A DNA stretch of 64,000 nt from Sinomonas gamaensis. GTDB lineage: Bacteria > Actinomycetota > Actinomycetes > Actinomycetales > Micrococcaceae. The stretch is from positions 62,001 through 126,000 of the forward strand of contig NZ_SSCL01000008.1 of the NCBI RefSeq assembly GCF_005876955.1. Reading direction: 5' to 3'. The first letter of the stretch is position 1; each line of letters starts with the position of its first letter. Made by a program: the position numbers and the translations under genes. This document shows positions 843 through 25,407 of the stretch, piece by piece. The notes under the pieces were generated by a model. That model was not told the DNA's origin and made no database searches. It was given only the letters and a program-made list of their open reading frames with translations.

Positions 843-848
843 GTTCGT

Positions 849-1832
849 TCAACTCTCTTTCGACTCTACGAATCCGGAGATGGGTTCGGGAAGTGGGTCA
901 GGGTGCAGGTCCGTCAGGTCCACTCTGTAAGAGACTTCCGACACGAGTGCGAAGTTAGGGACGACTGGAGCCACAAGATCGGTGGTCATCGCAGGAAAGC
1001 CGTTCTTCACGTCGTAGGCGCGTGGCTGAGAACGAAGCGCCCAGAACGTCGGATACAGGTCCGCATCGTCGTCCTGCCAGCCGAAGCTCGCTAGCATCGC
1101 ATCGGTCGCGACCCGATGTCCACCGGCGATCTTCCGGACGTGAGCGATAACCTGCGGAAGGGTTCGTCCCCCCTCTGGGGCAGTTCGAGTGAGCTGAATC
1201 GACAACACGCTGAGCGAAACACCCCGCAACGGCACGAGCTGGTTGAGCCCATGGATGATGTGGTGGCGACGCTCGCTGCTGGTCGTCTTCACCTCGATGT
1301 GAATCGAATCGAAAGTGAAGTCGTGCTCTTCTGACAACGGCCCCTGCCAAGCGACAGTCGCCGGTCCCGCGCCGATCTGATGCATGAGGAACTCCAGGAA
1401 AAGCAACTCCCCGATGAGCCCGACTTCCTTTTCAGGGGTCATCGCTCCACGGTTCGCAAACACGTTCCTGTGGCGAGCTATGCCCGCCGCAACAGCGGCC
1501 GCCAAGGGCATCTTCTCGATCTGGAGCTCATCGGCGATGGTGGCGAGCAATCCGTAGGCACCGTGCGCGCTGCCCTCAACTCTAACCGCGAGCTCGGCGA
1601 GTTCGTCATCGCCGGACGAAACCGCGCTGAAGCGGACGTTCCTAAGCTTGGCAACGTCAGGTTCAGGCGTTTCATACGGCGTCACGAGGGTGATAACGCT
1701 GTTCTTGGGGTCGAGTTGCAGACGGCAGGCCGGCTTACCCTTGATCGGAAGCACCATGGGTGCGCCGTTGTCCCACAACTCGTCGAGGGTGCTGAATGTC
1801 AGATGGCGCGCATCATCAGGGGAAATGGTCAT
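849..1832 (-). CDS. PD-(D/E)XK motif protein (DUF4420 family), predicted restriction nuclease
   Basis: The product has 327 residues. A restriction-endonuclease fold is visible: GELLFLEFL around E142, an acidic residue at D171 (HDFTF) and the EVK triad at 180-182 (IEVKTT), in the order and spacing of PD-(D/E)XK enzymes. Family DUF4420 is typically encoded between a GHKL ATPase and a Z1 protein. The ATG at 1832 overlaps the stop of the GHKL gene in an ATGA arrangement, which fixes the start and implies translational coupling. It is probably the DNA-cleaving subunit of the minus-strand system. The target sequence is unknown. Confidence 0.85.
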   Translation of the reverse strand: MTISPDDARHLTFSTLDELWDNGAPMVLPIKGKPACRLQLDPKNSVITLVTPYETPEPDVAKLRNVRFSAVSSGDDELAELAVRVEGSAHGAYGLLATIADELQIEKMPLAAAVAAGIARHRNVFANRGAMTPEKEVGLIGELLFLEFLMHQIGAGPATVAWQGPLSEEHDFTFDSIHIEVKTTSSERRHHIIHGLNQLVPLRGVSLSVLSIQLTRTAPEGGRTLPQVIAHVRKIAGGHRVATDAMLASFGWQDDDADLYPTFWALRSQPRAYDVKNGFPAMTTDLVAPVVPNFALVSEVSYRVDLTDLHPDPLPEPISGFVESKES

Positions 1833-3349
1833 TGCTTCGTTCCTTGCCCGCCACGCATATGGTCCTCGGCGGCCGCAGCCGTACCAAGGACACTTTTCCA
1901 AAGGGCGATTTCATCCTTGTCTCGCGACCCGAGGTGCTGACCTTCGAAGACGTGGTGGGTCAGCAGATAGATCAACGCCTTGAGCACCGGGGCGTCGTTC
2001 AAACTCCCGCCATCGGGCGCAAACAACCCGCGGTAGCGACTGTTGAGCCACAGGGTCTTGGCCGGGTAGTCGACGTCGAGGAACTCGCTAGCCAGCATGC
2101 GCTTCCACTTGACGTTGACTGGGTCCCCGTCAATGAAGGACAGCTCGGTGCCGATGCGCTTGCGGACAGCAGGGGCGATGCCCTTATCCGGTCGGATGAC
2201 CGGTTTGCGCTCACGCTTCCGCCTGTTGGCGTCGGTGTAAATTGACTCTGCATCTTGAAGAAAGGTCAGAAAGGTCGTGCCGTCGATTGCCTCAGCCTTG
2301 TTGAGGGCATCGTGGAAGACCGGTTCGAACTTCAGGCCGCTCTTCTCGGGGTTCATCGTCACGAAGGGGCCGATTGCGCCGTTGTCCTCCAGCACCACTC
2401 TAGCGAGCTGACGCGCAGTGCTCGGCGTGGCCGTGTCGGACCAGCCGCCGATCTGAAGTAGGCGATCGTTCCGGTAGATGTAGAACCCTTGGAACTGATC
2501 GCCGCTCTTGGCTCCAATGCGGAATCCTGTGACGTCCGACTTCGCCGGCCAAATGTGGCACGTCAGCTTCACTCGAGTCTCGCCAACCTTCGCAACCAAG
2601 TCCTTGGGGTACTCGGGATGGCCCGATGTCTTGTATCCGAAGGGATCAATCGGCAAGATCGGAATACCAAGACCAGCCAGGGCGTCCCCGAGTTCGTCAA
2701 TTAGTACGTCGATCTGGAGACGCTTGGCGGCGATAAGCCTGTGGAACGTGACGCCAAGATGCGATCTAAGCGCTTCGTTGCGCTTAGAGAGCCAACTTCG
2801 TGCCTCAGCTTGGTTGCGGCCTCGATACGCGTTGCGGACTTCCGTCCAGACGATTGATGTCCCCTCGGGCGAGCCCAGAACGACCTGCCGGTCGGCGGCA
2901 TGCTCGGCGGCAACATCGGACGACAGCACTTCACACGTGAAGTCCTTCGAGAAGTCCGCGCGACGAATGCGGCGTCCGACCGGAGTTGCACCGTAGCGCG
3001 CGGACCACACGGTCAGGACATCGCTGTGGCCGAACGATGCCGCCTTCAAACCCATGCCGAAGTGGCCCAAGTCCTCTTCGGCGTATGTGCGCTGATGTCC
3101 GATAGTCATGGCTGCATTCGCGGCGCTGGCGTCCATGCCTCTGCCGTTGTCGAGTACCTCCACCTGGGCAAGACGGTCGTTCCGAGTCAGAAGCCTGATC
3201 GACACGCGCGATGCGCCAGCGTCAACACTGTTGTCCACCACATCGGCTATCGCTGACTCCAATGTATGGTTAGCACCGAGGCTCTTGACGAGACCCGCAT
3301 CTGGAGCCAGTTTGATCCGGTCGACAACGTCGCTCGAACTCGCAATCAT
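1829..3349 (-). CDS. GHKL (MORC/MutL-like) ATP-binding protein of a restriction-type defence operon
   Basis: The product has 506 residues and a clear GHKL ATPase domain at its N-terminus: N-box AIADVVDNSVDAG (about 34-45), G1 motif DNGRGM (67-72) and G2 motif GHFGMGLK (95-102). The remaining 350 residues are the conserved C-terminal part of this prokaryotic family. Such proteins are thought to act as ATP-dependent DNA clamps within R-M-like systems. It is the first gene of the minus-strand operon (GHKL, DUF4420 nuclease, Z1) and diverges from the C5 methyltransferase across about 520 bp. Biochemical role is inferred from family and context. Confidence 0.9.
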   Translation of the reverse strand: MIASSSDVVDRIKLAPDAGLVKSLGANHTLESAIADVVDNSVDAGASRVSIRLLTRNDRLAQVEVLDNGRGMDASAANAAMTIGHQRTYAEEDLGHFGMGLKAASFGHSDVLTVWSARYGATPVGRRIRRADFSKDFTCEVLSSDVAAEHAADRQVVLGSPEGTSIVWTEVRNAYRGRNQAEARSWLSKRNEALRSHLGVTFHRLIAAKRLQIDVLIDELGDALAGLGIPILPIDPFGYKTSGHPEYPKDLVAKVGETRVKLTCHIWPAKSDVTGFRIGAKSGDQFQGFYIYRNDRLLQIGGWSDTATPSTARQLARVVLEDNGAIGPFVTMNPEKSGLKFEPVFHDALNKAEAIDGTTFLTFLQDAESIYTDANRRKRERKPVIRPDKGIAPAVRKRIGTELSFIDGDPVNVKWKRMLASEFLDVDYPAKTLWLNSRYRGLFAPDGGSLNDAPVLKALIYLLTHHVFEGQHLGSRDKDEIALWKSVLGTAAAAEDHMRGGQGTKQ

Positions 3350-3873: not shown

Positions 3874-4986
3874 ATGAGCAAGACCCTAGGGCATCGAGCC
3901 CCCTACGAACGCACGCCCGCCTCGGACTCCATCCGCGTCCTCGACCTCTTCGCGGGCGCGGGCGGGCTAACGCAGGGACTCTATGCAGCATCGCCGCGTT
4001 TCGTGACCGAACAAGCAGTTGAGATCGATCTGGCGGCCGCTGCCAGCTTCGCGGCTACTTTCGGCCGGAAGAAGATCTTCGCAGGCTCTATCGAGCAGTG
4101 GCTTGAGCTAGGAGCGGTGCCGAAAGCCGACGTCGTAGTCGGCGGCCCACCCTGCCAGGGTTTCTCTCTGCTGGGGAAACGAGACCCCAGGGACCTGCGG
4201 AACCAGCTGTGGCAGGCGTACGCGGAGACAATTGTTCAGGCAAAGCCCACCTACTTCGTAGTGGAGAACGTCCCGGCCTTCAGCAAGTCCGAACAGCTTG
4301 CCGATTTCAAAGCAGCCACTGGACGCTATGGAATGTTGAGCGACTATGCCTTCGACTGGCATGTGCTCAACGCCGCCGATTACGGTGCTCCCCAGGCTCG
4401 CAAGCGAGCGATCTTGATTGGCCATCATCGCTCGGTCCCCTCCCCTGGGTTTCCCGCTCCTACTCATGTAGGTAGACACGTTTCAGTAAGAAGGGCGCTC
4501 GCCGCGGTCTCAAAAGATCCTACGGGGACCGTCCTCGCAGACCGCATGACGGAATTCAACGGGACGAGGTTGCGGGGCCCATACACCACTGCCGAATTGC
4601 ATGTCGACCGTGAGTACCGCGAGATCTCTCTGCAACGCTTTCAAGCTATTCCTCCGGGCGGCAACCGATTTGATCTTCCCGAGGATCTCCTGGCTCCTTG
4701 CTGGGTCAGCCATAAGTCCGGATCGGGAGACGTGATGGGCCGTCTCCGCTGGGATAGCCCGTCTGTCACGATACGCACCGAATTCTTCAAGCCGGAAAAG
4801 GGACGGTACCTGCACCCCGAAGAGCACCGGGCGATCACGCCCCTCGAGGCGGCGCTCCTACAAGGTTTTCCTTTGGACCGGCTGTGGCTCGGCTCTAAGA
4901 CGTCCATCGCTCGTCAAATCGGAAACGCTGTGCCTATCGAACTCGGCGCTGCCATCGGACGGCTTTTGGCAAAAAACCTCGCGTAG
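3874..4986 (+). CDS. C5-cytosine DNA methyltransferase
   Basis: The 370-residue enzyme shows the full motif set of C5 methyltransferases: motif I DLFAGAGGL (24-32, SAM binding), motif IV GGPPCQGFS with catalytic Cys94, motif VI VVENV, motif VIII QARKR and motif X RQIGNAVP near the C-terminus. The target-recognition region lies between VIII and X and is of ordinary length. It transfers methyl groups from SAM to cytosine in a site that cannot be predicted from sequence. It could protect host DNA for the divergent GHKL/nuclease/Z1 operon, act as the DrmMII-type methylase of the DISARM-like genes downstream, or serve both. The start is preceded by a GAGG-like site. Confidence 0.95.
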   Translation: MSKTLGHRAPYERTPASDSIRVLDLFAGAGGLTQGLYAASPRFVTEQAVEIDLAAAASFAATFGRKKIFAGSIEQWLELGAVPKADVVVGGPPCQGFSLLGKRDPRDLRNQLWQAYAETIVQAKPTYFVVENVPAFSKSEQLADFKAATGRYGMLSDYAFDWHVLNAADYGAPQARKRAILIGHHRSVPSPGFPAPTHVGRHVSVRRALAAVSKDPTGTVLADRMTEFNGTRLRGPYTTAELHVDREYREISLQRFQAIPPGGNRFDLPEDLLAPCWVSHKSGSGDVMGRLRWDSPSVTIRTEFFKPEKGRYLHPEEHRAITPLEAALLQGFPLDRLWLGSKTSIARQIGNAVPIELGAAIGRLLAKNLA

Positions 4987-5059
4987 TCCGACCAACCTGA
5001 TCCTCGGCCCAAGACGACGGGGACCACTGATACAACCGAATAACGATGAAAGTTGGCCA

Positions 5060-5077
5060 CGGCGATCATCATCGCCG
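5060..5077 (+). promoter_or_regulatory. Small perfect hairpin upstream of the GHKL-helicase gene
   Basis: CGGCGAT-catc-ATCGCCG forms a 7-bp stem with a 4-nt loop, about 20 nt before the ribosome-binding site (GAGGGGAG) of the next gene. It could be an operator or an mRNA structure. It is short and GC-rich, so chance is possible. Confidence 0.3.
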
Positions 5078-5097
5078 AGGCTATGAGGGGAGCTTCA

Positions 5098-8000
5098 ATG
5101 TTGAACGCGGCGAAGTGGCAAGGACCAGAGGGAAACCTGGGCCGATGGCTCGTTGCAGATGGACGAGCCGCGTTGGAGGCCTACAGGGTCAGGCCGGAAC
5201 TCGTCAAGGAGCACGACGCTCTCGAACGCAGCACTGTGGAAAGCGGCTACGGGCGAAAGCAGCTCAACGAGCTGGCTCAGAACGCTGCCGACGCCATGAG
5301 GGGCATGTCCGGCCGGCTGGCCTTCGTGCTGACCGAAAGCTCGCTCTACTGCGCCAATGAGGGCGATCCGCTGACGCAGGGAGGCCTTGAAGCTCTGCTC
5401 ATGTCCCACTCGTCCCAGAAGCGTGACGACGAGATCGGCCGATTCGGACTCGGCTTCAAATCAGTGTTGCAGTTGACGGACGCCCCGCAGATCATCAGTC
5501 GCACTGTCTCCGTCAAATGGGATCGGGCTCGCTCGGCTGCAGTGATCTCCGGAGTCGTCGGGGGCAGAGAACGGTATCCGGCCCTGCGGCTCGCTGAGCC
5601 TTTCGACCCGGTCGTCGCTGCCGCCACCGACCAGGTGCTCTCCGAACTCATGGACTGGGCTACTACCATCGTCCGAATTCCGCTCAAGGACCGAACTCCA
5701 TGGCTTGACGAAGAGCTCGAGCGGTTCCCCCACGAATTCATCCTGTTCGCAGACCATATCGACACCCTCGATCTCGACAATCGCCGCACCGGCAAGCGCA
5801 AGACGTGGACGGCAGATCGCAGGCCCTATCCCCATGGGCTGGGGGAACGCGTCGTGCTGCAGGCCGATGGCCAAGCTGAGTCTTGGGACGTCTTCCGGGT
5901 GCCCCACCAACCCTCCCCCGAGGCCGCCAAGGACGCCGGCAGCGTTGCTGCCCGCTCCGAGCTGAAGCTCACCTGGGCCGTTCCGCTCAAGAGCCGCGGC
6001 CGCGGGCTAGGCAGGGTCTGGAATTACTTCCCGACGCAGTCGTACACGACCCTCAGCGGCATCATCAATGCTGCCTTCAAGCTCAACGAAGACCGCGAGA
6101 ACATGCTGGCCGGGCTGTACAACGAGGAGATCCTCACCAAGAGCCTGCCCCGGGTTGTCGCATTCGCCCTGCCCGACCTGGTCGACCCTCAGGATCCCGG
6201 CAGCATCCTGGACATCCTCCCTGCCCGTGGCCGTGAAGCTCGATCCTGGGCAGACGAGGTCCTCAACAAGCCCGTCATGGCGACAGTCGCCGCCATGACG
6301 TTCGTCCCCGACCGGATGGGAGTCCTGCGCGCGGCGAACGAGCTGCAGATCGAACCCGAACTCGACCAGGCCGAGCGACTCGAATCCATGTGGGATGCCG
6401 CCGTCGGACGTGAAAGGCCGTGGGCGCATCGAAGCCTGACCAGCAACGCAGCCCGGAATCACACCCTCAATCGCCTTCTCTCGATGGCCAACAAAGAGCG
6501 AGCCGGGGTCAGAGCGTGGCTTGAAGAAGTGGTGCATCCGCGGACGGCCGAGAGCTTCCTTGCCGCATTGGAGATCGCGGTTGAGATCAACCAGCGCTTC
6601 TCAGAACTTGCAAGCGAAATGCGCTCCGCCCGGATCGTTCCAGCGGGTGACGGATCCCTCCAAGCACCCATCGGCAGCGCACTGTTCGTACCCATCGACG
6701 ACGACGACAACGCCCCGAACCTCGTGTCCCTCGAATTCGTTCGGCACCGGAATGCGCGTGAGCTTCTCCGGAAGCTCGACATCGGACTCCTCGACGCGCA
6801 GGGACGCCTCAAGAAGGCGATTGCCGCAATCAGATCGAACCCGGCAGACCGCGCATCACTGGAGGCGTTCTGGGCTCTGTCGCGGTCAGTCGATCTCCCC
6901 TCCGTCCTGCAGCTCCTCCAAGGGCTCGCCAACACTTCCCTGCCTGTCCGCTGCGAGGACGGCCAGTGGCGGCCCATCGGCGAGGTCTGGCTTCGCGGCG
7001 ACCTGTTCCCCCAGGGAAGCATGGACGATGCATCCCTTGTCGTCGACAGTTCGTTTCATGCTCAAGACATGCGCGTCCTCAAAGCGCTCAAGGTGCACTC
7101 CGATCTCGGCGACCCTGTGCAGATCAGCTCGGGGAGATTGCACCAGCTATGGAAGGATGCCATCTCGGAGACGATCGAAGCGCACTTCCGAAACAGTCCC
7201 ACCCCCGTATCGGGAATCCATCTCGCATTCGGGCAGCCCTTCGCCACCCCAGGACTCGAACTGCTGTCGGACGCGAGCGCCGAAGTCAGACGGCGCGCGA
7301 CCGAGCGCATCCTCGATCAGCCGCACTATGAAGTGCGAGTCAAGATCAACAACCAATACGTGAGCGACCGTAAAGTATTCGACCCCGACATCTGGTGGGC
7401 CCGGAATCACGGAACGCTCAAGACGCCCCTCGGTCTCGTTGAAGCGCGCAACGCCGTCGCTGGATCTCCTGACATCCCCGACGGATTCTTGCCTGTCGCC
7501 CTGGATCAGCGCGCCGCCGATCTCCTCGCGCTTCCCGCCGATCCCGCCACCTACAGCTGGCCCTACATCTACACCTTGGCCAATCGGTCCCTGGGACTTT
7601 CAGAACTCCACCAGCTCTACGGCATCGCCGCACTGCACGGGTTCCGGAAGCCAGAGCATGTGTCGGTGATGACGAAGCATGGACGTGCCGAGCTTCCTTT
7701 CGAAGACGCACAGGTGGCGACCGACCGCCGAACCTACGAGCACTTCGCCCAGAACCGCGAAGCCGCAGTGCTGTTCGTCGAATCAGACGAGCTCCGCCTG
7801 GCCTTGGTAGATCAATGGAACCTCCCAGCGCTGGAAGTCAGGTTCGAATCCAAGCTCGTGGCCGAAGGGCAGGGAGACCCCCTGCCGTTGATGAAGCGGA
7901 TTCCGTTCATCCACAAGGCCGTATCAGGGATTTCGAAACTCATCACCGTTCCGTGCGAGAACATTCGAATCGAAACCACGAACGATGCCGGCGACCCGCC

Positions 8001-9756
8001 CGCTGTCGTAACGAGACAGGCATATCTCGAGGGAGACACCTTCTACTACCTCGAAACCATGACTCCCCGAATTTGGCTGCAGGCACTGCTGGACAGCACG
8101 GGCAAGAAGGTCGACTCAAGAATAGCCCTCGACAACGCCCAACAGGCCAAGAAGGAGCACGATCAGGCCGAAAGGCTGCGGAAGATCCAGGCAAAGCAGA
8201 CTGATGAAGAGAAGCTGCTGGAGCTGGTAGGCGAATCCACCATACGGTCGCTGATTCCCAACCACGTCTTTGCACTGCTGAACAGCAGAAGTGACGAGGA
8301 GATCTCGGGCACAGCTCTCGTGCGGCTCGCAAGCACACTCCATGGGGCAAGCCTTCTCCAGAAGATTCGACCCTTCTTGGAAGAACAGGGGATCGAGACC
8401 CCCAGCCAGTTCAAGGGCAGCTCCGCCGCCCGCAGTTTCGTGCGCAAGCTGGGGATCTCGGAGGACTTTGCCGGTTCCAGCGAGATCCGCAAGCCTGTCC
8501 GTGAAGAAGTGATGGGCCCCGTACGTCTCAGCGCCATGCACGACTACCAGGTGGATGTCAGCAAGCAGATTCTGGCCGTCCTCGAACGCGAAACCGAGAA
8601 CCGGGCTATCGTCCAGCTTCCGACGGGGGCAGGCAAGACCCGAGTCGCCGTCGAATCGGTCATTCAGCACGTCGGCCGTTCAGAGGGTCAGAAGCTTGTC
8701 GTCTGGGTGGCCCAGACCGAAGAGCTCTGCGAACAGGCGGTGGAAGCATGGCTCTACGTGTGGCAAGGGGCCGGGGTCCCGGAGCAGCGGATGGCTGTAG
8801 GCCGCCTCTGGGACGGAAGACGACCCAAGCCCGAAGAGACCCGGCTGCACGTCGTCGTTGCCACCATCCAAACCCTGAGCAGTATCGTGCAGGACGCGGG
8901 TGAGCGCGAAGAATACGCCTGGCTCTTCGGCGCCGACATACTCATCGTCGATGAGGCGCACGGAGCCATCGCCCCTACCTACACAGACGTATTCCGGGCC
9001 TTCGGCAGAGGCAACTCCCAGAGGGGCAAACCTCTCATCGGCCTCTCAGCAACTCCTTACAAGGGAACCAACGAAGCCGAGACAACACGTCTTGTGAGGC
9101 GCTTCGATGGGCATCTCCTGATGCCATCGCTTTTCACGACCGACAATGCCCATGCATATCTTCAGTCCATGGGAGTGCTGGCCCGGGTGCGGCACGAGGC
9201 GCTGGACGGGATCGAGCTCCAACTGACCAAGGGCGTCCAGCGCCCGGACCGCGGAGACAGTGCCATGCTGGAAACCCGGATCGATCTGGATGTCGTGGCC
9301 AAGAGCAAGACGCGGAACGATACCATCCTGGACCATCTGCATTCTGTCGCGCCCAAAGAGACGGCGCTGGTTTTCGCGGCATCAGTCGACCACGCAGAGG
9401 CGCTGGCCGCGACGCTCACCGCGGAGGGCATCCGAGCAGCCGCGATCTCGTCGAAGACTAACCCCTCCGACAGGAGGCGCGAGATCGAGGACTTCCGTTC
9501 GGGCAAGATCCGGGTCCTGACCAACTTCGATGTGCTCTCGCAGGGTTTCGATGCACCAAAGGTGGGTGCTGTCTATGTCTGCAGGCCGACATTCACCCCG
9601 AACAAGTACCTGCAGATGATCGGGCGCGGGCTGCGGGGTCCGAAGAACGGCGGCAGCGAGGAAGTCCTGATCGTCAACGTCAAGGACAACATCGACCAAT
9701 TCGGACAGCGGCTCGCGTTCAATCACTTCGAGTATCTCTGGAACCGCGAATCGTGA
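5098..9756 (+). CDS. Giant sacsin/Hsp90-type GHKL ATPase fused to an SF2 DEAD/DEAH helicase
   Basis: The product has 1552 residues. The N-terminal GHKL domain carries the N-box LNELAQNAADA (N62, D65), a divergent G1 motif ANEGDPLT and a G2 motif IGRFGLGFKSV, the pattern of sacsin-like ATPases. About 900 residues without a recognisable domain follow, with a charged helical stretch near 1010-1035. From about residue 1150 there is an SF2 helicase: Walker A PTGAGKT (about 1171), DEAH (about 1283), LSATPYKG, and motif VI QMIGRGLRG. The start at ATG 5098 has a GAGGGGAG site; an upstream in-frame ATG at 5053 has none. Its stop overlaps the UvrD start by 4 nt. It probably senses or remodels DNA in the DISARM-like system, but the exact role is unknown. 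Confidence 0.85.
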   Translation: MLNAAKWQGPEGNLGRWLVADGRAALEAYRVRPELVKEHDALERSTVESGYGRKQLNELAQNAADAMRGMSGRLAFVLTESSLYCANEGDPLTQGGLEALLMSHSSQKRDDEIGRFGLGFKSVLQLTDAPQIISRTVSVKWDRARSAAVISGVVGGRERYPALRLAEPFDPVVAAATDQVLSELMDWATTIVRIPLKDRTPWLDEELERFPHEFILFADHIDTLDLDNRRTGKRKTWTADRRPYPHGLGERVVLQADGQAESWDVFRVPHQPSPEAAKDAGSVAARSELKLTWAVPLKSRGRGLGRVWNYFPTQSYTTLSGIINAAFKLNEDRENMLAGLYNEEILTKSLPRVVAFALPDLVDPQDPGSILDILPARGREARSWADEVLNKPVMATVAAMTFVPDRMGVLRAANELQIEPELDQAERLESMWDAAVGRERPWAHRSLTSNAARNHTLNRLLSMANKERAGVRAWLEEVVHPRTAESFLAALEIAVEINQRFSELASEMRSARIVPAGDGSLQAPIGSALFVPIDDDDNAPNLVSLEFVRHRNARELLRKLDIGLLDAQGRLKKAIAAIRSNPADRASLEAFWALSRSVDLPSVLQLLQGLANTSLPVRCEDGQWRPIGEVWLRGDLFPQGSMDDASLVVDSSFHAQDMRVLKALKVHSDLGDPVQISSGRLHQLWKDAISETIEAHFRNSPTPVSGIHLAFGQPFATPGLELLSDASAEVRRRATERILDQPHYEVRVKINNQYVSDRKVFDPDIWWARNHGTLKTPLGLVEARNAVAGSPDIPDGFLPVALDQRAADLLALPADPATYSWPYIYTLANRSLGLSELHQLYGIAALHGFRKPEHVSVMTKHGRAELPFEDAQVATDRRTYEHFAQNREAAVLFVESDELRLALVDQWNLPALEVRFESKLVAEGQGDPLPLMKRIPFIHKAVSGISKLITVPCENIRIETTNDAGDPPAVVTRQAYLEGDTFYYLETMTPRIWLQALLDSTGKKVDSRIALDNAQQAKKEHDQAERLRKIQAKQTDEEKLLELVGESTIRSLIPNHVFALLNSRSDEEISGTALVRLASTLHGASLLQKIRPFLEEQGIETPSQFKGSSAARSFVRKLGISEDFAGSSEIRKPVREEVMGPVRLSAMHDYQVDVSKQILAVLERETENRAIVQLPTGAGKTRVAVESVIQHVGRSEGQKLVVWVAQTEELCEQAVEAWLYVWQGAGVPEQRMAVGRLWDGRRPKPEETRLHVVVATIQTLSSIVQDAGEREEYAWLFGADILIVDEAHGAIAPTYTDVFRAFGRGNSQRGKPLIGLSATPYKGTNEAETTRLVRRFDGHLLMPSLFTTDNAHAYLQSMGVLARVRHEALDGIELQLTKGVQRPDRGDSAMLETRIDLDVVAKSKTRNDTILDHLHSVAPKETALVFAASVDHAEALAATLTAEGIRAAAISSKTNPSDRRREIEDFRSGKIRVLTNFDVLSQGFDAPKVGAVYVCRPTFTPNKYLQMIGRGLRGPKNGGSEEVLIVNVKDNIDQFGQRLAFNHFEYLWNRES

Positions 9757-11564
9757 ACGCCTTCGAACTCGACCGCAGCCAGACCGAAGTGGCCACGGCC
9801 CCTGCCGAGGACCGGCAGTACGTGATTGCCGGAGCGGGCCAGGGAAAGACCGAGGTGCTCGTATCCCGGATCCTCCACCTCGCAGAGGCGGAAGGCCTGA
9901 ACCCTGCCGATGAGATCCTTGTGCTCAGCTTCTCTCGCGCTGCCGTCGAAGCCGCGCGGAAACGGGCTCTCTCCGCTGATGTCGATCAAGTCATGATCCG
10001 AACCTTCGACTCGCTGGCCAGCGCAATCATCCTCGATCTCCTCGGGCCGGACGGCGGTGCCGAAGGCGGATCCTTCGAACAGCGGATACGCCAGGCCACA
10101 GCCTTGGTCGAGGAGCACGGGCTGCCGAGCTTCCTCTTGGGTCTCCGGCACCTGTGCGTCGACGAAGCCCAGGACCTGGTCGGCGACCGCGCCCGCCTGG
10201 CGACTGTCATCCTCGAGAACGCGCCAGAGGAGCTCGGGTTCACTTTCCTCGGCGACCCGCTCCAAGGCGTCTACGACTTCCAGCTCCAGGCATCCGCCGC
10301 AGAGACGACTGCGCAGCAGCTCTTCGACACTCTCGTCAGCGACTATGGCGCCAAACCCCGAGCCCTCGAGCGCAACTACAGGGCCCAGAGCGAGCGCGCA
10401 AGGCAGCTGATCGAGGTCGGGAAGGCCCTCCGCGACACCGACCTCGGGGATCCGCGGGCCGCCGCTGGCGCATACGAGGCCCTCGAGGCCTACCGAGCCG
10501 AAGACGCGACAAGCACCTCGTTCCTCGACGTCGGGGCGGTCCTGCGCCCCGACCCCGAAACAGCCGCGATCCTCTGTGCGACGAACTACGAGGTGCTGCT
10601 GATCAGCGAGGCACTCGACCAGCAGAGAATAGAACACGGCGTACGTCGAAGAGCTCAGGACATGGGCGCCGCGAAGTGGATATGGCAAGCGCTCCACGAG
10701 CTGGCCCCCACAAAGCACCCAGAAGCGACCGTGCTTGAAGGGCTCGACTCTGCAGGGCGGCGGGACCCAGCCGGGGACTGGTTCCTGCTGAAGCAATGCG
10801 AAGCCAACTGGCGCGATCCCTGGTCCCTCGACCTGGCCGAACTCGCCCGAAAGATCGCGCGAGGCTCCCTGCCCCTGCCGCTGACAGCCAGCGACTCGCT
10901 CCCGCTGACCGTCTCGACCATCTACAGGGCCAAGGGACTCGAGTACGACCATGTGCTCTACATCGAGCCGGACGAGCGCAGCGACTCCCAGCCCGACTTC
11001 GCCAGCCTAGTCCGCCGCACCTATGTGGCCCTCAGCCGCGCACGCGAATCCATCTTCTCAGCTCGCCTCGAACGGCCCGGAGGAACCTTCGCACAGAAGC
11101 ACGCGGCCACAGGACGGTGGACCGAACGCCGGTTCGGGAAGCCCAGGGACTACGCCTCCAGGATGGCCGTCGAATCCTCGGATGTCCGCTCGACGTTCCC
11201 ATACGCCAGCCGATCGCGCGATGCCCTGCCGGTCCAGTTGGCGATACTCGACTCGTCGATCGGCACCCAGGCGCAGGCCATCCGGATCGTCGACGCCGAT
11301 GAGGCCAATCCGGCATTCTACGAGTTCCAGACCCTGGAGGGCCGAGCACTCGGCATTTCCAGCGAGAAATTCGGCCGCGATGTCCGAAGGGTCTTCTACA
11401 GAGGTGGAGACTTCAAGTGGCCCGTGAGCTTTACATGTCTACGTCTCTCCTCGGTCGAAAGTGCAGCAGGCAGTCCCGAGCAGACAGACGAAGTTGGACT
11501 CGGGAGATCAGGGCTCTGGCTCGTCCCGAGGTTCTCAGGCCTGGCCCGCGCGAGTTGGAAGTGA
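9753..11564 (+). CDS. UvrD/Rep-like SF1A DNA helicase
   Basis: The 603-residue protein has all major SF1A motifs: Walker A GAGQGKTEVL (about 27-35), Walker B VDEAQDL (about 136), motif III FLGDPLQGVYDF, LERNYR, motif V TIYRAKGLEYDHV and motif VI RRTYVALSRAR. It starts with GTG overlapping the previous stop (GTGA) and ends 13 nt before the DrmA gene, so it is translationally embedded in this operon. A UvrD helicase is not a standard DISARM component. Here it may unwind or process DNA delivered by the GHKL-helicase. The last 90 residues are poorly conserved in motif content. Confidence 0.9.
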   Translation: MNAFELDRSQTEVATAPAEDRQYVIAGAGQGKTEVLVSRILHLAEAEGLNPADEILVLSFSRAAVEAARKRALSADVDQVMIRTFDSLASAIILDLLGPDGGAEGGSFEQRIRQATALVEEHGLPSFLLGLRHLCVDEAQDLVGDRARLATVILENAPEELGFTFLGDPLQGVYDFQLQASAAETTAQQLFDTLVSDYGAKPRALERNYRAQSERARQLIEVGKALRDTDLGDPRAAAGAYEALEAYRAEDATSTSFLDVGAVLRPDPETAAILCATNYEVLLISEALDQQRIEHGVRRRAQDMGAAKWIWQALHELAPTKHPEATVLEGLDSAGRRDPAGDWFLLKQCEANWRDPWSLDLAELARKIARGSLPLPLTASDSLPLTVSTIYRAKGLEYDHVLYIEPDERSDSQPDFASLVRRTYVALSRARESIFSARLERPGGTFAQKHAATGRWTERRFGKPRDYASRMAVESSDVRSTFPYASRSRDALPVQLAILDSSIGTQAQAIRIVDADEANPAFYEFQTLEGRALGISSEKFGRDVRRVFYRGGDFKWPVSFTCLRLSSVESAAGSPEQTDEVGLGRSGLWLVPRFSGLARASWK

Positions 11565-11577
11565 GTTGACCTTAGCC

Positions 11578-14500
11578 ATGAGTCTTGCATCGAAATACGC
11601 CTTCCGATCCGAAATGGTGGACCGTCTCGTCACGGACCTCTACGGCCCCGGCGGAATCGACGAGGTCCTCGACGAACGGCCCCTCGACCGCTATCTGACA
11701 GGCGTCCTCTGGCCATTGTCCGGCGAATCCCTCGACGCCGTCGCCGACGACCCCGACGCGGGAACCGCCTCAGACGACGAGGTCCAAGACAGCCCAGTCG
11801 CGGCTTCCCGCATGACCTACCCCTCGAGCATCGGCATGACATTCACGATCGACACCCGCGTCACCCCTCTGTTCACTGTCCGCCCACAGGCGGCGCGATA
11901 CGTCCCAGCTGCCCCTGACGGCCAGACCCAGAACGGGTCGCCGTCCGGACGTTGGGCACGTCATGCCCAGGACCTGCCGCCCTTGACGGTCGACGTCTCG
12001 AACACCGCTGGGGAAGTCGCGCATCCCGTCCACGGCGAACTGGAGCTGTACGTCCTTGCACGCCCGCCTCAGGCCGACCTGGTCACTGTCACCGTTGCTC
12101 TGCGGAACCGTCTGCCCAAGCCAGCCGAAGGTGATAGGGACCTCAACTGCTGGTTCCAAGTGGGACTGACCGTGGAAACACCATTGCCCGCTCTCGTGGA
12201 CCGCCAGTCCCTCCACACAGAAGCCTCGGCGGAAGAAGACCTGGCCAGCGCGCAGCTCCTCTACAGGAACGCCCGCATATTCGCGGCCGGACACGGCTGT
12301 GCCACCACGTGGGGGGACGACGATGTCCAGGGGGCTCTCTGCCAGCGCGTCGCCACGACGTTCGTTCCCCGCCAGGAAGTTCCCCGAGCCATGACCGGTG
12401 AAGTGTCGGCGGACCTCCGCCTCGGCTTCCTCAGTCAGGCAGACGCCGCACGAATCGCCGAAGAGCTCGCCCTCCTGGTCAACGAATACCGAAGCTGGAT
12501 AGCCAGCAAACGCGAGAGCCTCATCGCAGGGAACTCCGGCGAGGACATCCCAGAGCACCTGCGGGCAACCGCAGAACGCCATCTCGAATCCGCATCCGTG
12601 GCCGCCGACCGCATCCAAGCCGGCATCGACTTGATCGCCGCAGACCCCCAGGCGTTCAAAGCCTTCCAGCTGGCCAACCGGGCGATGCACCTTCAGAGAT
12701 CGCGTCAGGATTGGGTGCGTTCGAAGTCAACCGCGGCCTTCACCCTTGACCAGGACCAGGAGTGGCGGCCTTTCCAGATCGCCTTCATCCTGCTCAATCT
12801 CCCTTCGTTGACACAGCCAGACCACTCCGAACGCGACATCGCGGACCTCCTCTGGTTCCCGACCGGTGGCGGCAAGACGGAGGCGTACCTCGGCCTGATC
12901 GCCTACACCATCCTTCTGCGCAGGCTCCGAGACAACAGCGCCAAGGGCGTTGCCGTGATCATGCGATACACCCTCCGCCTCCTGACGATCCAGCAGTTCG
13001 AGCGCGCCGCCATGCTCATCTGCTCCCTCGAGCACCTTCGGAGGGCAGATGCCGACCTGGGAGGGGAGGCCTTCGGCATCGGCTTGTGGGTAGGAGCCGG
13101 AGCCACACCGAACGATGCCAAGACCGCAAAGAGGAACCTCGGCAGACTCTCCCGGGGCGAGGACGTGATGGAAGGCAATCCGGTGCAGCTCAAAGCCTGC
13201 CCCTGGTGCGGACGTGTCCTCAGCGAGGCGAACTACGACGTCCGCAGACTGCCCTACGAACGGATGGTCATCGAGTGCCCGAGCTCGTCCTGCGACTATC
13301 ATTCAGGCTTGCCGGTCCATCTGGTCGACTCCGACATCTACCGGGAGCGCCCCGAGCTCGTCATCGCGACAGTCGATAAATTCGCCCAAATGGCGTGGAA
13401 CGGCGCCATCGCCAATATCTTCGGACGCGCCAATTCTGGCGATCACGGCCCCGACCTGATCATCCAGGACGAATTGCATCTCATCTCCGGACCACTCGGG
13501 TCGACCGTCGGACTATACGAATCCGCGTTCGACATGGCAGCCAGCGACGCCTTCCGATCCCCGGAGGAAGCTGCCCGCAAGCCCAAAGTCATCGCCTCGA
13601 CCGCGACAATCCGCCGCGCTGCGGCACAAATTTCCGCAGTCTTCGACCGCAAATCGCGCCTCTTCCCGCCCCCCGGGCTACTCCCCGACGATTCGTTCTT
13701 CGCCGAAAAGGCCCCGCGAGAAAAATTCGGCACCCGCGAGTACGTGGGCGTTATGGCCTCCGGCACAAGCCACGCCACCCTGATGGTCCGCGTCTACGCC
13801 TCCCTGCTGAATTCCAGCCTGCGGATTGAGGGCAGCGACGAGGACCGCGATCCCTACTGGACGCTCATAGGCTACTTCAACAGCCTTCGCGTGCTTGGCA
13901 GCGCGTACCTACAGGTCAGCGACGATGTCCGAGTCCGGCTCGGGCTCCTCGCAGCCCGGGACGGCCAGCGCAACCAGGTGCGCGACGTGAACCCGAGCGA
14001 GCTGACCAGCCGGGTCGCCAACAACCTCATCCCGGTCCGTCTGAAGAATCTCGAGACCTGGTTCGGAGAACCTGGAGTCGACAGCGTGGTCCTGGCCACG
14101 AACATGATCTCCGTCGGGCTCGACGTCGACCGCCTCGGGCTCATGGCCGTCATGGGCCAGCCCCAGTCCAGCGCCGAATACATCCAGGCAACCAGCCGCG
14201 TCGGGCGCCGCTGGCCGGGGCTCGTGGTCACCATCTTCAACGCGGCCAAGTCCAGGGACCGCTCGCACTTCGAAGGATTCGTCCCGTTCCATCAGGCCAT
14301 GTACCGCGCCGTCGAAGCCACAAGCGCCACCCCCTTTGCCGCACGGTCCCGGGATCGCGCCCTGCACGGAGCCCTCGTCTCCGCCGTGCGAATGCTCTCC
14401 CCCGCAATGGCAGTGGACGGCGCGGCAGCAACACTCGAGGACCACGCGGCAATTGTTGAGGAAATCAAGAGTCACCTGGTGGAACGCGTGTCCCGCGTCG

Positions 14501-14763
14501 CCCCTCCCGAGGCGGAGGCTACAGACGCCCAGCTCGAGGCGCTGCTGTCGGTATGGGCCATCGAAGCGGCAGGAAAGTCATCCTTGCGGTACAAGGACGA
14601 GAAGAACTCTGCCAATTCCCTCCTGATTCGGTACAGCCAGGCTTTGGAAAAGGAGGACTTCGAGTTCTCTCTCGACCACGCGCCCTGGGCAACCCCGGAG
14701 AGCATGCGCGACGTCGATGCGGAGACGCCCCTTAAACAGATCTTCTTACGGAAGGACGCCTGA
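11578..14763 (+). CDS. drmA: DISARM-type helicase DrmA (YprA family)
   Basis: The product has 1061 residues. The helicase core shows Walker A FPTGGGKTEAY (about 426), a DELH motif II in IIQDELHLISGP (about 630), STATIRR motif III, and C-terminal motifs V-VI NMISVGLDVDR and QATSRVGRRWPG (about 870). A four-cysteine zinc-finger insert CPWC...CPSSSC (541-573) lies between motifs I and II, as in DrmA. In DISARM, DrmA and DrmB together load on phage DNA and block its propagation. The ATG at 11578 is chosen because residues from MSLASKY onward look coding; an upstream in-frame start at 11461 would overlap the UvrD gene by 100 bp. One base separates its stop from drmB. Confidence 0.87.
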   Translation: MSLASKYAFRSEMVDRLVTDLYGPGGIDEVLDERPLDRYLTGVLWPLSGESLDAVADDPDAGTASDDEVQDSPVAASRMTYPSSIGMTFTIDTRVTPLFTVRPQAARYVPAAPDGQTQNGSPSGRWARHAQDLPPLTVDVSNTAGEVAHPVHGELELYVLARPPQADLVTVTVALRNRLPKPAEGDRDLNCWFQVGLTVETPLPALVDRQSLHTEASAEEDLASAQLLYRNARIFAAGHGCATTWGDDDVQGALCQRVATTFVPRQEVPRAMTGEVSADLRLGFLSQADAARIAEELALLVNEYRSWIASKRESLIAGNSGEDIPEHLRATAERHLESASVAADRIQAGIDLIAADPQAFKAFQLANRAMHLQRSRQDWVRSKSTAAFTLDQDQEWRPFQIAFILLNLPSLTQPDHSERDIADLLWFPTGGGKTEAYLGLIAYTILLRRLRDNSAKGVAVIMRYTLRLLTIQQFERAAMLICSLEHLRRADADLGGEAFGIGLWVGAGATPNDAKTAKRNLGRLSRGEDVMEGNPVQLKACPWCGRVLSEANYDVRRLPYERMVIECPSSSCDYHSGLPVHLVDSDIYRERPELVIATVDKFAQMAWNGAIANIFGRANSGDHGPDLIIQDELHLISGPLGSTVGLYESAFDMAASDAFRSPEEAARKPKVIASTATIRRAAAQISAVFDRKSRLFPPPGLLPDDSFFAEKAPREKFGTREYVGVMASGTSHATLMVRVYASLLNSSLRIEGSDEDRDPYWTLIGYFNSLRVLGSAYLQVSDDVRVRLGLLAARDGQRNQVRDVNPSELTSRVANNLIPVRLKNLETWFGEPGVDSVVLATNMISVGLDVDRLGLMAVMGQPQSSAEYIQATSRVGRRWPGLVVTIFNAAKSRDRSHFEGFVPFHQAMYRAVEATSATPFAARSRDRALHGALVSAVRMLSPAMAVDGAAATLEDHAAIVEEIKSHLVERVSRVAPPEAEATDAQLEALLSVWAIEAAGKSSLRYKDEKNSANSLLIRYSQALEKEDFEFSLDHAPWATPESMRDVDAETPLKQIFLRKDA

Positions 14764-14764
14764 C

Positions 14765-16525
14765 ATGGCAGAACTGAAGGTCCGCAGGTCCCAGTTGCTC
14801 TCAACCTACGGCGTGGGCGGCCTGCTGCCGGACGAGAACGCCAGCTTCATGGTCGCCAGTCTCGACCAGTGGGACCAGGGACACCTGACCCCCGTCCCGG
14901 AGCCCCGACTGGCCCGGGCCCTGAACGTCGCAGCGCTCTACCTGCCGTCCGCCAGCAAAAAGACCGGGTCTGTATCCGTCATCCGTTTCCCCTTCATCCA
15001 GTCATGCAGCAAATGCGGACGTCTCGGAGACCTCGCGCGACTCAAATCGGCGTGGAACGAACCGAAGTGCGGGTTCTGCAAGTCTCCTACACTCACTCCC
15101 TCCCGCCTGATCGTCATCTGCCAAGACGGACACATAGATGACTTTCCCTATCATTACTGGGTTCATTCGGAGTACTACTCCCCAGATCCCGGAGCCCACC
15201 TTCTGGAGCTCAAAGCCCAGGGTCGCACCTCCTCACTCGGTGACATGGTCGTCTCCTGCTCCTGCGGACGGAAACGCAGTCTCGCGGATGCCTTCTTCCC
15301 CAACGCCTTCGGCCCAATGCGCTGCAACGGCCGGCGGCCCTGGCTCGGGGGGGCGGCGTTCACGGAGAAGAGCTGCGACAAGAAGCCGCGCGCCACACAA
15401 CGCGGTGCTTCCAACGTATGGTTCCCTTCAATCGCCTCCGTCATCTCCATTCCTCCCTATTCAGAGGCGCTGTCCAAGGCCGTTGCTGCCGACGCTGGCT
15501 TTCTGGCCGATCCCGAGGCCCTCACTCCTGAAGGGCGAGTCCTCATCACGACAGCAGCCAAGAAGTACGGGGGCAAGTACTCGGAGGAGGAGATCATCGC
15601 CGAGATCAAACGCCTCTTCCACAACGACGACTCGGGGACGGCCAACACAGCCCAACTCAAGAAGCAGGAGTTCGCAGCACTTGTAGAAGGGCGTGAGGAC
15701 GGCCCCGGCCGTGACTTCGTCTGCCTGCCGGTCGACGTCGATCCGAGCCTCTACCCTCTGGTGACCGGCGTCCGACGAGTCACCCGACTCCGGGAGGTCA
15801 GGGCGCTATTCGGCTTCAGCCGGCTAACCGCCCCCTCAGAGGACAACCCTGATGTCAAGACGTGCACCCTCAGCCCCGAGGACCACAAAGTTCCCTGGCT
15901 TCCTGCCGTTGAGAACATCGGAGAGGGAATCTTCATCGCACTCGACCGAGACCGCCTGGAGGAATGGTCCCGCCGAGAATTCGTCCAGCGACGCCTCGCG
16001 CAGCTCACAGCAAACGCGAAGACGGCGGCCGCCCAGCGAAAGCAGCAGCCGGCACCCGTCGACATCATCAAGGTCGCGGTGCACACCCTCGCCCACGTTC
16101 TGATCGACCAGCTCTCCATGGATGCCGGCTACCCCACATCATCGATTCGAGAGCGACTGTATGTCGACGACGACTCCGCCGGAATCCTGCTCTTCACAGC
16201 CTCAGCCGATTCGGCAGGAAGCCTCGGCGGCCTGGCTGCGCAGGCGGACACCGCCGCTCTGGCCAGCGTCTTCCGCGAAGGCCTCCGGCGCCTTTCCTGG
16301 TGCTCGGCCGACCCCGTCTGCATCGAATCCACCGGCACGGGCACCGACGGACGCAATCTAGCAGCTTGTCACAACTGCGTCTACCTGCCCGAGACCAGCT
16401 GTGAAGGCTTCAACGGCGGGCTGGACAGGGGGCTCCTCTTCGGAACCCCGGGCAGCCGCGACAATGGGCTGTTCGGCGCCTTCGCATCGGTTCTCTCTGG
16501 TTTGACTCCCTCGATTGAGCGCTGA
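14765..16525 (+). CDS. drmB: DISARM protein DrmB (DUF1998)
   Basis: The product has 586 residues. Near the N-terminus (about 81-125) are two CxxC pairs, CSKC and CGFC, followed by CQDGHIDDFPY. The C-terminal DUF1998 domain begins near HTLAHVLIDQLS (about 439) and ends in the cysteine cluster CHNCVYLPETSCEGFNGGLDR. This is the signature of DrmB, the obligate partner of DrmA. The start follows the drmA stop by one base. No phospholipase-D gene (drmC) follows, which sets this locus apart from class 1 and class 2 DISARM. Confidence 0.9.
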   Translation: MAELKVRRSQLLSTYGVGGLLPDENASFMVASLDQWDQGHLTPVPEPRLARALNVAALYLPSASKKTGSVSVIRFPFIQSCSKCGRLGDLARLKSAWNEPKCGFCKSPTLTPSRLIVICQDGHIDDFPYHYWVHSEYYSPDPGAHLLELKAQGRTSSLGDMVVSCSCGRKRSLADAFFPNAFGPMRCNGRRPWLGGAAFTEKSCDKKPRATQRGASNVWFPSIASVISIPPYSEALSKAVAADAGFLADPEALTPEGRVLITTAAKKYGGKYSEEEIIAEIKRLFHNDDSGTANTAQLKKQEFAALVEGREDGPGRDFVCLPVDVDPSLYPLVTGVRRVTRLREVRALFGFSRLTAPSEDNPDVKTCTLSPEDHKVPWLPAVENIGEGIFIALDRDRLEEWSRREFVQRRLAQLTANAKTAAAQRKQQPAPVDIIKVAVHTLAHVLIDQLSMDAGYPTSSIRERLYVDDDSAGILLFTASADSAGSLGGLAAQADTAALASVFREGLRRLSWCSADPVCIESTGTGTDGRNLAACHNCVYLPETSCEGFNGGLDRGLLFGTPGSRDNGLFGAFASVLSGLTPSIER

Positions 16526-16790: not shown

Positions 16791-17129
16791 GTGCAACACA
16801 TGACTGCGGATCGAACCGGCCACACATTGAAGGCCCTCAGAGAGCTTGTTCAAGAGAGGAACTGGGGACAATTCCACTCGCCTGAGAACCTAGCGAAGAG
16901 CATTTCGATCGAAGCTGCTGAACTGCTCGAATGCTTTCAGTGGGGACCGCCAGAAGACAACTCTGCCGTACGCCACGAGCTCGCTGATGTAATCACCTAC
17001 TGCCTTCTCCTCGCCGACAAACTGGGGCTCGATCCCCACGACATCGTGCTTGAGAAGCTAGACATCACCCGGGCCAAGTACCCGATCGAGCTCTCACACG
17101 GTCGGAGTACTAAGCATGACCAGTTTTAG
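16791..17129 (+). CDS. MazG-like nucleotide pyrophosphohydrolase
   Basis: The 112-residue all-helical protein matches the MazG/dCTPase family: the metal-binding motif SIEAAELLECFQW (ExxE) and the second acidic pair ELADVITY. Such enzymes hydrolyse (d)NTPs to monophosphates. Small versions occur in phages and defence islands, where they can deplete or sanitise nucleotides. The GTG start sits 11 nt after a strong AGGAGG; an in-frame ATG three codons later is possible. The gene overlaps the following DUF2075 gene by 14 nt, so the two are co-translated. Confidence 0.85.
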   Translation: MQHMTADRTGHTLKALRELVQERNWGQFHSPENLAKSISIEAAELLECFQWGPPEDNSAVRHELADVITYCLLLADKLGLDPHDIVLEKLDITRAKYPIELSHGRSTKHDQF

Positions 17130-19532: not shown

Positions 19533-19649
19533 AATTCCTCCCCTTGATAGAAATTCGCACTGTTCGCCAACCTACCCCGCACATCCGACAAAACCGTGCA
19601 ACCTTCGTGGTAGAACTGCGCTGAACCACGCATGCAAAAGGGGACAGCA

Positions 19650-23351: not shown

Positions 23352-23387
23352 ATTTGCACCATCCTCGAGCTGTAGTGGTCTTATCAA

Positions 23388-25077: not shown

Positions 25078-25126
25078 ATGGGGCCCGTGCCCTCGTGCTC
25101 GAGCTGTTCGGCACCCCGCTCCCCAC

Positions 25127-25363
25127 TTGTTCGGCCCCACCGCCCGACAGGCGACTCGCGACTTCGCCGCCGCGCTCGCCACCGACCCGCGCCGGCTCGC
25201 CGCGGGGCCGACCCGCTCCCATGGCAACGTCGCCAGCACTCCTGTGCGCGCCGCCGTCCGCCGCTTCGCCTACAGCGGCCTCGCCGTCCAGCGGCCGGGT
25301 GCCGAACCGCAGTTCGCCCACATGAGCGTCTGGGACGCTGCGCACCCGCTGGCCACCGTCTGA
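25127..25363 (+). pseudogene. C-terminal fragment of an unidentified gene
   Basis: This 78-codon frame ends at TGA 25363 and has strong GC-third-position bias with sensible composition (TARQATRDFAAALATD, RRFAYSGLAVQ), unlike random antisense. It has no credible start (only TTG inside the frame), and the preceding sequence continues in another frame. It looks like the tail of a gene truncated near the inverted repeat at 25010-25077. I do not recognise the family. Confidence 0.35.
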
Positions 25364-25407
25364 CTCCCATCCCGTCCACCCTTCCATCCGCCACCAAAGG
25401 AGTCCCC

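Follow-up and report, generated by a model that had tools for sequence, protein, structure and literature searches.

The window analysed here is a stretch of 64,000 nt from Sinomonas gamaensis, corresponding to positions 62001-126000 of contig C34 in a 4.32-Mb genome, and this work concerns a cluster of five plus-strand genes within it. From upstream to downstream, these genes encode a C5 cytosine DNA methyltransferase (MTase; 3874..4986, 370 aa), a large protein that we call GHKL-RadD (5098..9756, 1552 aa), a UvrD/GajB-like superfamily 1 (SF1) helicase with an extra C-terminal beta-rich region (9753..11564, 603 aa), a short-form DrmA of the YprA helicase family (11578..14763, 1061 aa), and DrmB, the DUF1998/MZB zinc-binding partner of DrmA (14765..16525, 586 aa). 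The gaps between the genes do not exceed 111 bases, and all five proteins contain the motifs that were sought. The 111-base gap separates the MTase from GHKL-RadD when the latter starts at 5098; the longest open frame of GHKL-RadD begins at 5053 and encodes 1567 aa. An earlier note on this DNA had described a 1552-aa GHKL-SF2 fusion and a UvrD-like helicase as coupled to drmA, and the gene boundaries agree, with the UvrD start overlapping the GHKL-RadD stop by 4 bases and the most likely DrmA start (ATG at 11578) lying 13 bases past UvrD. The most likely DrmB start (ATG at 14765) is 1 base past the DrmA stop, and a longer DrmB frame from 14717 would overlap DrmA.

DrmA and DrmB, which had been recognised by motifs and by their intact pair order, are borne out by PADLOC, NCBIfam and PDB matches. 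DrmA matches its PADLOC model at 9e-233 and NCBIfam DISARM_DrmAS at 991.6 bits (cut-off 950), and DrmB matches its PADLOC model at 4e-70 and NCBIfam DrmB_fam at 441 bits (cut-off 240). The chains of the solved Serratia DrmAB structure match the two proteins at 2e-157 (7s9v_A, DrmA) and 9e-69 (7s9v_B, DrmB). The DUF1998/MZB region sits in a gene separate from the DrmA helicase.

GHKL-RadD is composed of a sacsin/Hsp90/Tiamat-like GHKL half and a RadD-like superfamily 2 (SF2) half, joined by a long middle region. Its N-terminal part matches the NCBIfam sacsin ATP-binding-like domain at 73 bits (cut-off 50; 2e-20) and the PADLOC TmtA models over residues 41-366 at 4e-38 and 67-564 at 9e-37 (numbering of the 1567-aa frame), and the Pfam SACS domain falls below threshold (29.5 bits vs a cut-off of 32.8). 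The C-terminal part is an SF2 helicase (Pfam ResIII 5e-21, Helicase_C 2e-17) in which the Walker, DEAH, SAT, and QxxGRxxR motifs were found, and a profile of 13 GHKL-RadD homologues run against the PDB gives RadD as the closest match to this part (2e-35) and sacsin structures at 1e-9. The AlphaFold2 model of residues 1-1141, built from a 39-row alignment, has a mean predicted local distance difference test (pLDDT) score of 87 and a predicted TM-score of 0.56; its best Foldseek matches are to TRAP1/Hsp90 (6e-6) and sacsin SR1 (1e-4), for which the TM-scores, taken over the long query, are low. The GHKL N-box has E58 and N62 in the 1552-aa form, and the Walker A of the RadD-like part is at 1177-1181. 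Among the 50 matches listed, the middle region (about residues 360-1140) shows no PDB fold of its own beyond the Hsp90 type. GHKL-RadD thus shares the ATPase fold with eukaryotic sacsin and Hsp90, as judged from the Foldseek and NCBIfam results, but it is bacterial and carries a RadD-like DNA helicase in the same chain. Among named relatives of the gene, the nearest is in Sinomonas albida, with 96% identity. Tiamat, which we take to be the system of the PADLOC TmtA models, is a single stand-alone TmtA protein. It shares the N-terminal GHKL ATPase region with GHKL-RadD, but the best stretches of the TmtA models end at residue 564, and GHKL-RadD adds an SF2 helicase and belongs to a DrmAB operon, so that only a TmtA-like N-terminal part within a four-gene operon is found here, not a stand-alone gene.

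The SF1 helicase matches Pfam UvrD-helicase at 1.5e-19, and GajB is its best PADLOC name. Its AlphaFold2 model (pLDDT 92) has UvrD, PcrA, and Rep as top rows among the 50 Foldseek matches listed, with GajB scoring lower and RecBCD, AdnAB, and Dna2 chains further down. It therefore shares the UvrD-type helicase with Gabija, but UvrD/PcrA structures outscore GajB, and no GajA is present among the PADLOC matches listed for eight window proteins. A nuclease hidden in the C-terminal region of UvrD was considered and is not shown, as none of the 50 Foldseek matches listed indicated a nuclease in that region specifically.

The earlier note had proposed searching other genomes for co-occurrence of the four genes from GHKL-RadD to DrmB, and this search found them together widely. 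An alignment-profile scan of genome contigs gave at least 509 relatives of GHKL-RadD, and the best 80 of these provided 79 distinct named loci, which by title are mostly from Actinomycetota, plus an Acidobacterium and a metagenome-assembled genome of Dehalococcoidia. In a six-frame profile scan, 72 of the 79 named loci carry GHKL-RadD, UvrD or NERD-UvrD, DrmA, and DrmB in this order on one strand, a proportion to be read with the fact that the loci were picked by similarity to GHKL-RadD and are not a random sample. The SF1 helicase is UvrD in 71 of the 72 intact loci and NERD-UvrD in 1, and DrmB adjoins DrmA in all 72, by definition of an intact locus. Four of the seven failures lie at contig ends (L081, L113) or have broken frames (L077, L105). 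One of these, L077 (9995-21755, Arthrobacter sp. OVS8), is second only to L056 in best-segment identity to the window (71%), and its entire operon is split into many frames, by decay or by sequencing error.

In an order-level sample of 297 genomes, 13 full-length GHKL-RadD genes were found in 11 genomes (the window included), and 11 of these genes are the first of a four-gene set; four of these sets are of the NERD-UvrD type, and one, in genome G107, was pieced together from two sequence stretches. The other two genes are second copies directly past DrmB. Such a second full-length GHKL-RadD right after DrmB on the same strand is seen in L042 (G121) and L045/L046 (G107). In a class-level sample of 394 evenly drawn genomes, again with the window, DrmA (E<=1e-60) and GHKL-RadD (E<=1e-30) were searched for separately, and at most two candidates were scored per genome, so that the counts are of scored candidates. 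Eighteen GHKL-RadD genes were scored in 17 of the 394 genomes, and for 17 of the 18 (16/17 without the window) DrmA begins 6.3-6.7 kb past the GHKL-RadD start, on the same strand. Conversely, among 67 scored DrmA loci, GHKL-RadD is adjacent in 16 of the 17 that score at least 776 bits (15/16 without the window) and in 1 of the 50 that score 616 bits or less (G1007, contig C64; Fisher p = 2.5e-13, window counted). Chance adjacency is rejected by this sample (17/18; 16/17 vs 1/50), and the conservation of the four-gene set is far beyond chance.

The four proteins also vary together. Their pairwise distances correlate with Spearman coefficients of 0.86-0.94 over 84 loci, with species history uncorrected and near copies included, and such correlations would fit inheritance as a unit. 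Motifs were counted over 84 intact loci with loose regular expressions. Motifs I and II of all three helicase motors are present in 84/84 loci, and the ATPase and helicase motifs are mostly intact across the set.

Several observations, along with the selection of the named loci, the limit on candidates per genome, and the uncorrected distances, weigh against reading the set as a distinct, conserved class of defence system. In the remaining three failures among the named loci, the gene order is rearranged (L064 and L133) or GHKL-RadD stands without any of the other three genes (L122). The exceptional GHKL-RadD gene of the class-level sample, in genome G567, lies 29 kb from DrmA. Motif VI was matched in 72/84 UvrD and 83/84 DrmA proteins, two GHKL motifs in 82/84 each and another form of the N-box in 75/84, and every counted motif is present in 70 of the 84 loci.

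We also placed the DrmA proteins on a tree, made with a quick IQ-TREE run on a MAFFT alignment, supported by SH-aLRT (the Shimodaira-Hasegawa-like approximate likelihood ratio test) only, and drawn with midpoint rooting. Rows were excluded when they lacked DrmA (L043, L055), were near copies (L056, L059, L068, L075), were broken (L077), were shorter than 700 aa, or contained stops, and 119 rows were thinned to 71 at 68% identity; the DISARM rows sampled were of class 1, with class 2 outside the sample. UvrD-linked DrmA forms one set of 35 rows with SH-aLRT 100, of which 32 have GHKL-RadD and UvrD and three have UvrD only: L064, in which the set is split, L165, whose genome is G567 with GHKL-RadD 29 kb away, and L274, which has a different, 464-aa gene. 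Since GHKL-RadD was the route by which most of these rows were gathered, the proportion of 32/35 carries no weight as evidence; that the set stands apart does. The 13 class-1 DISARM rows group in a separate set (support 97-98), and L188 and L192, assigned to class 1 by DrmC alone, lie on long branches elsewhere. Two more UvrD-linked rows from plasmids, L275 and L276, fall outside the 35-row set. The type with GHKL-RadD and NERD-UvrD forms a third set of 4 rows (support 99) within a group of NERD-linked and other rows, and because the two DrmA groups with GHKL-RadD are not sisters, more than one gain or loss of GHKL-RadD has taken place, a further point against a single conserved class. On a GHKL tree thinned to 41 rows, the Mycolicibacterium row L079 is placed differently than on the DrmA tree, and GHKL-RadD and UvrD are more than 500 bp apart in L079 and L080; together these findings suggest module exchange.

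The set was compared with the known DrmAB systems. The core triplet of DISARM is drmABC, and class 1 has the SNF2 helicase DrmD and DrmMI upstream of DrmA. The window set shares with classes 1 and 2 the adjacent DrmA and DrmB, in that order, and a DNA methyltransferase that is sometimes nearby, and DrmB directly follows DrmA in the window. It could therefore be ordinary DISARM of class 1 or 2 in which drmC, drmD, or drmE has been lost or is hidden beside unrelated helicase genes; DrmA and DrmB do exceed the NCBIfam DISARM cut-offs, and class 2 also has a C5 MTase in front. However, no DrmC was found in 92 stretches (91 with the GHKL gene; 81 reaching at least 1.5 kb past DrmB, or 77 without the four near copies), GHKL-RadD and UvrD being present instead. 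The DrmC model used was built from three class-1 loci, and it found DrmC in 8 of 11 DrmD- or DrmMI-bearing loci outside its building set. The PADLOC matches listed for eight window proteins include neither DrmC nor DrmE, and the only DrmD match is a generic one (E 0.0018) on the gene at 17116, in agreement with the earlier claim that the operon contains no DrmC or DrmD. No PLDc_2 match lies on contig C34, those of the host genome being on C23 and C30; a PLDc_N match below threshold (17.6 vs 23.3 bits) is found 10.7 kb downstream (27271-28269). DrmD and DrmMI were not found upstream of DrmA in the window. A DrmD-like gene was detected in 5 of the 92 stretches; it lies downstream of DrmB in four (L065, L079, L080, L112) and upstream on the other strand in L071, which is also the only bearer of DrmMI (1/92). 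The DrmA set is separate from that of class 1, and the helicase pair is conserved with DrmA. The window MTase is nearer to DruM2 (PADLOC 1.4e-88) than to DrmMII of class 2 (4e-44). Degenerate class-1 DISARM is rejected by the DrmC and DrmD scans, the DrmA tree, and the PLDc_2 search of the contig, and we consider it very unlikely that the cluster is ordinary DISARM of either class.

ARMADA type II, as described in the main text of PMC12458937, has the same functional recipe as the window set, combining a YprA-family helicase, a second SF2 motor, a GajB/UvrD-like helicase, and a methyltransferase. An SNF2 helicase does occur downstream in the four loci L065, L079, L080, and L112, and the related locus L274 also speaks for an ARMADA assignment. 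L274 (4804-21150), on a Tsukamurella plasmid, encodes in order a C5 MTase, the 464-aa protein, UvrD, DrmA, DrmB, an SNF2 helicase, and a large MTase, and is a hybrid of the class described here with class-1/ARMADA-like parts, in which an unknown protein replaces GHKL-RadD. On the other hand, the ARMADA YprA helicase described in that main text has a fused OB-CON-DUF1998 module and a C-terminal Vsr nuclease, whereas a split DrmA/DrmB pair of the DISARM families is found in the window, and the RadD-like motor is carried on a GHKL ATPase rather than being BrxHII. UvrD motif I is at residue 27 of the window protein, which leaves no room for an N-terminal RelE-like domain, and no fused Vsr or RelE was detected. 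The window MTase is of the C5 type, and there is no PglX-type MTase among the five proteins. Membership of ARMADA type II is highly improbable on these grounds.

The earlier note knew no system with exactly this gene set, and the set matches no DISARM class and no ARMADA, BRIGADE, or TALON type described in the main text of PMC12458937. This preprint on the YprA family mentions "many uncharacterized DISARM-like" classes, and we found no description of a GHKL-RadD-UvrD-DrmA-DrmB set in the literature searched. As far as this literature shows, the set is an undescribed and unnamed DISARM-like class.

A rarer form of the set combines GHKL-RadD with a NERD-UvrD helicase (L048-L051, L125). The order NERD-UvrD, DrmA, DrmB also occurs without GHKL-RadD, in L168, L169, L170, L173, and L177; for upstream frames of 500-1250 aa in L168, L170, L173, and L177, scans against Pfam (E 1e-3) and PADLOC (E 1e-6) gave no family match, and these sets are possibly further undescribed DISARM-like classes. 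They share with the window an SF1 helicase gene that immediately precedes DrmA and DrmB, but this helicase carries a NERD nuclease domain, and GHKL-RadD accompanies it only in the L048-L051, L125 group. The window has a plus-strand NERD-nuclease and UvrD-like helicase gene outside the core, 3.1 kb downstream of the operon (19632..21332; Pfam NERD 9.5e-12, PADLOC NERD+UvrD 1.6e-30), which is a possible auxiliary nuclease gene; in L091, L103, and L166 a NERD-UvrD match begins no more than about 55 bp from the match to DrmB.

The methyltransferase at the front of the cluster, which the earlier note had counted with it, is present in the window (Pfam DNA_methylase 8.7e-50), but it is an optional partner across loci. 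A C5 MTase match within 3.5 kb was found in 31 of the 72 intact named loci, at varying positions; 16 of the matches exceed 300 bits, one is at 280 bits, and 14 are below 100 bits, and the weak match in L065 is a C5 methylase by Pfam. On the other side of the MTase, a minus-strand module runs divergently from it over window positions 1-3349. This module consists of a MutL-like GHKL ATPase of a Mza-like type (1829..3349; PADLOC MzaB 4e-25), a DUF4420 gene (849-1901), and a Z1-like gene encoding 982 aa that extends from 842 across the window edge, all three outside the core; the Z1-DUF4420-MutL module is placed at 1-3349 of the window and 14894-17000 of L038. Z1, DUF4420, and a Dcm-type methylase are described as occurring together in a Corynebacterium restriction-modification island (PMC5379612). 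The MTase could be the Dcm gene of the window's Z1-DUF4420-MutL module, which the GHKL cluster would then merely adjoin. The module ends about 0.5 kb from the MTase, the other 41 of the 72 intact named loci lack a C5 MTase match within 3.5 kb, and on the Arthrobacter plasmid p2MP (L278, 7182-17386) an MTase, a GHKL protein without the helicase half (1096 aa), a MutL-like protein, DUF4420, and Z1 follow each other in one series. Against this, a strongly similar MTase lies 119-142 bp upstream of GHKL-RadD in L056, L062, L063, and L068, where the stretches contain no Z1, MutL, or DUF4420 match; L056 is the nearest relative of the window. We regard assignment of the MTase to the Z1 module as possible but somewhat doubtful, and the MTase may serve both the module and the GHKL-DrmAB operon. 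A Mza-like module as a fixed part of the set is ruled out, as Z1, MutL, or DUF4420 matches occur in only 13 of the 79 named stretches; a Z1 search of 40 system-bearing genomes, taken from 40 of the 79 named loci, was positive in 10.

On the GHKL tree, the p2MP GHKL protein is nested among the Arthrobacter GHKL-RadD proteins. From this nesting and the gene series, the GHKL part has apparently moved between DISARM-like and MutL-Z1 systems, and p2MP seems to use this GHKL module in a restriction-type system of another kind.

Further defence-type neighbours in the window are an SLFN-g3 helicase with a weak GIY-YIG match (17116-18879), a DUF7255 gene (22770-23387), a NucS_C/PDC-S11 gene (23867-24979), and an ADP-ribosylglycohydrolase (25078-26946). 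Flanking frames of the loci other than L056, L059, L068, and L075 were clustered, with noise from antisense frames in the GC-rich DNA. The clustering revealed, besides the NERD-UvrD cluster, a gene of about 730 aa (729 aa in Streptomyces-type loci) with an N-terminal helix-turn-helix (HTH), divergent from and upstream of GHKL-RadD, for example at 6861-9050 in L089. The cluster covers 42 loci, mostly of Streptomyces and Actinomadura types, with 41 frames upstream on the opposite strand; the protein has only the HTH by Pfam and matches PADLOC PDC-M33A at 4e-20, and it is possibly a regulator. A phage origin of the set was considered and rejected on searches of a phage collection and of viral contigs. 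The phage collection contains no UvrD match at E 1e-5, and the GHKL-RadD query found four records there that match the helicase part only. Among viral contigs, one of the best 80 loci has a near-full-length GHKL-RadD (L194, residues 26-1544), and its stretch ends about 0.2 kb past this match, short of any downstream neighbours.

We infer a defence role for the cluster from its relatives and neighbours, and this indirectness counts against the assignment, as does the fact that relatives of RadD, UvrD, and YprA/MrfA also work in DNA repair. The cluster might instead be an accessory repair cluster whose RadD-, UvrD-, and MrfA/YprA-like motors act on damaged or stalled DNA, and the closest solved relatives of two motors are indeed repair helicases (RadD and UvrD/PcrA). 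Such a role is unlikely in view of the rare and patchy distribution of the set (17/394 genomes), the DISARM families to which its DrmAB belongs, and the defence-type genes beside it in the window (the Mza-like module, the NERD-helicase, and PDC-S11). The cluster probably represents an anti-phage system of the DISARM-like, DrmAB-based kind that forms a distinct and conserved class. It occurs mostly in Actinomycetota and has GHKL-RadD, UvrD, DrmA, and DrmB as its core.

How such a system could work is suggested by its relatives. The sacsin/Hsp90-type ATPase of GHKL-RadD might make the protein an ATP-gated partner, dimerising or closing as a clamp when ATP is bound. MutL is also a GHKL ATPase. 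It interacts with UvrD (PMC2292703), and GHKL-RadD could in a like manner couple its RadD-like motor and UvrD to DrmAB-marked DNA, filling the place that DrmD and DrmMI have in class-1 DISARM. According to PMC9142583, Serratia DrmAB binds single-stranded DNA (ssDNA) and 5' overhangs and has a trigger loop that autoinhibits it; DrmC was not co-purified with the complex and appears non-essential. DrmAB of the window set may likewise load on invading DNA with single-stranded ends or on replication intermediates. As none of the four core genes was recognised as a nuclease, the first effect would be to block, unwind, or strip phage DNA, at circularisation or replication, and its breakdown would fall to host nucleases or, where present, to the auxiliary NERD-helicase; the C5 MTase, where present, may mark self DNA. 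A partial precedent is Druantia III of mycobacteria, which is reported to block DNA circularisation with proteins lacking a canonical nuclease domain (PMC13316683); in contrast, type III DruE is given PLD-like nuclease domains in PMC12458937, and Druantia III is called a helicase-nuclease in PMC13192584. The earlier suggestion of a multi-step machine with a GHKL clamp and three helicases is plausible. The full scheme, a nuclease-free machine in which DrmAB senses ssDNA ends, a sacsin/Hsp90-type part acts as clamp or loader, the RadD-like, UvrD, and DrmA motors unwind the genome of the phage and thereby make its replication fail, and the GHKL part is exchangeable with MutL-Z1 modules as on p2MP, is offered tentatively and is rather doubtful in its entirety.

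These results show DrmAB to be a plug-in core that occurs with quite different partners, so that drmC and drmD are not needed for recognising a DISARM-type system. Judging from the NCBIfam result, current profiles would name only DrmA and DrmB and would suggest a partial DISARM. With this set one can ask directly what DrmAB does in the absence of DrmC, and can also ask about the role of a sacsin/Hsp90-type ATPase in phage defence. To our knowledge, this fold recurs in phage defence, in Tiamat and MutL-like proteins, with no settled mechanism. Under the nuclease-free scheme, GHKL-RadD would act as an Hsp90-like switch joined to a DNA motor within a DISARM-type system, and we found no description of such a case in the literature searched.

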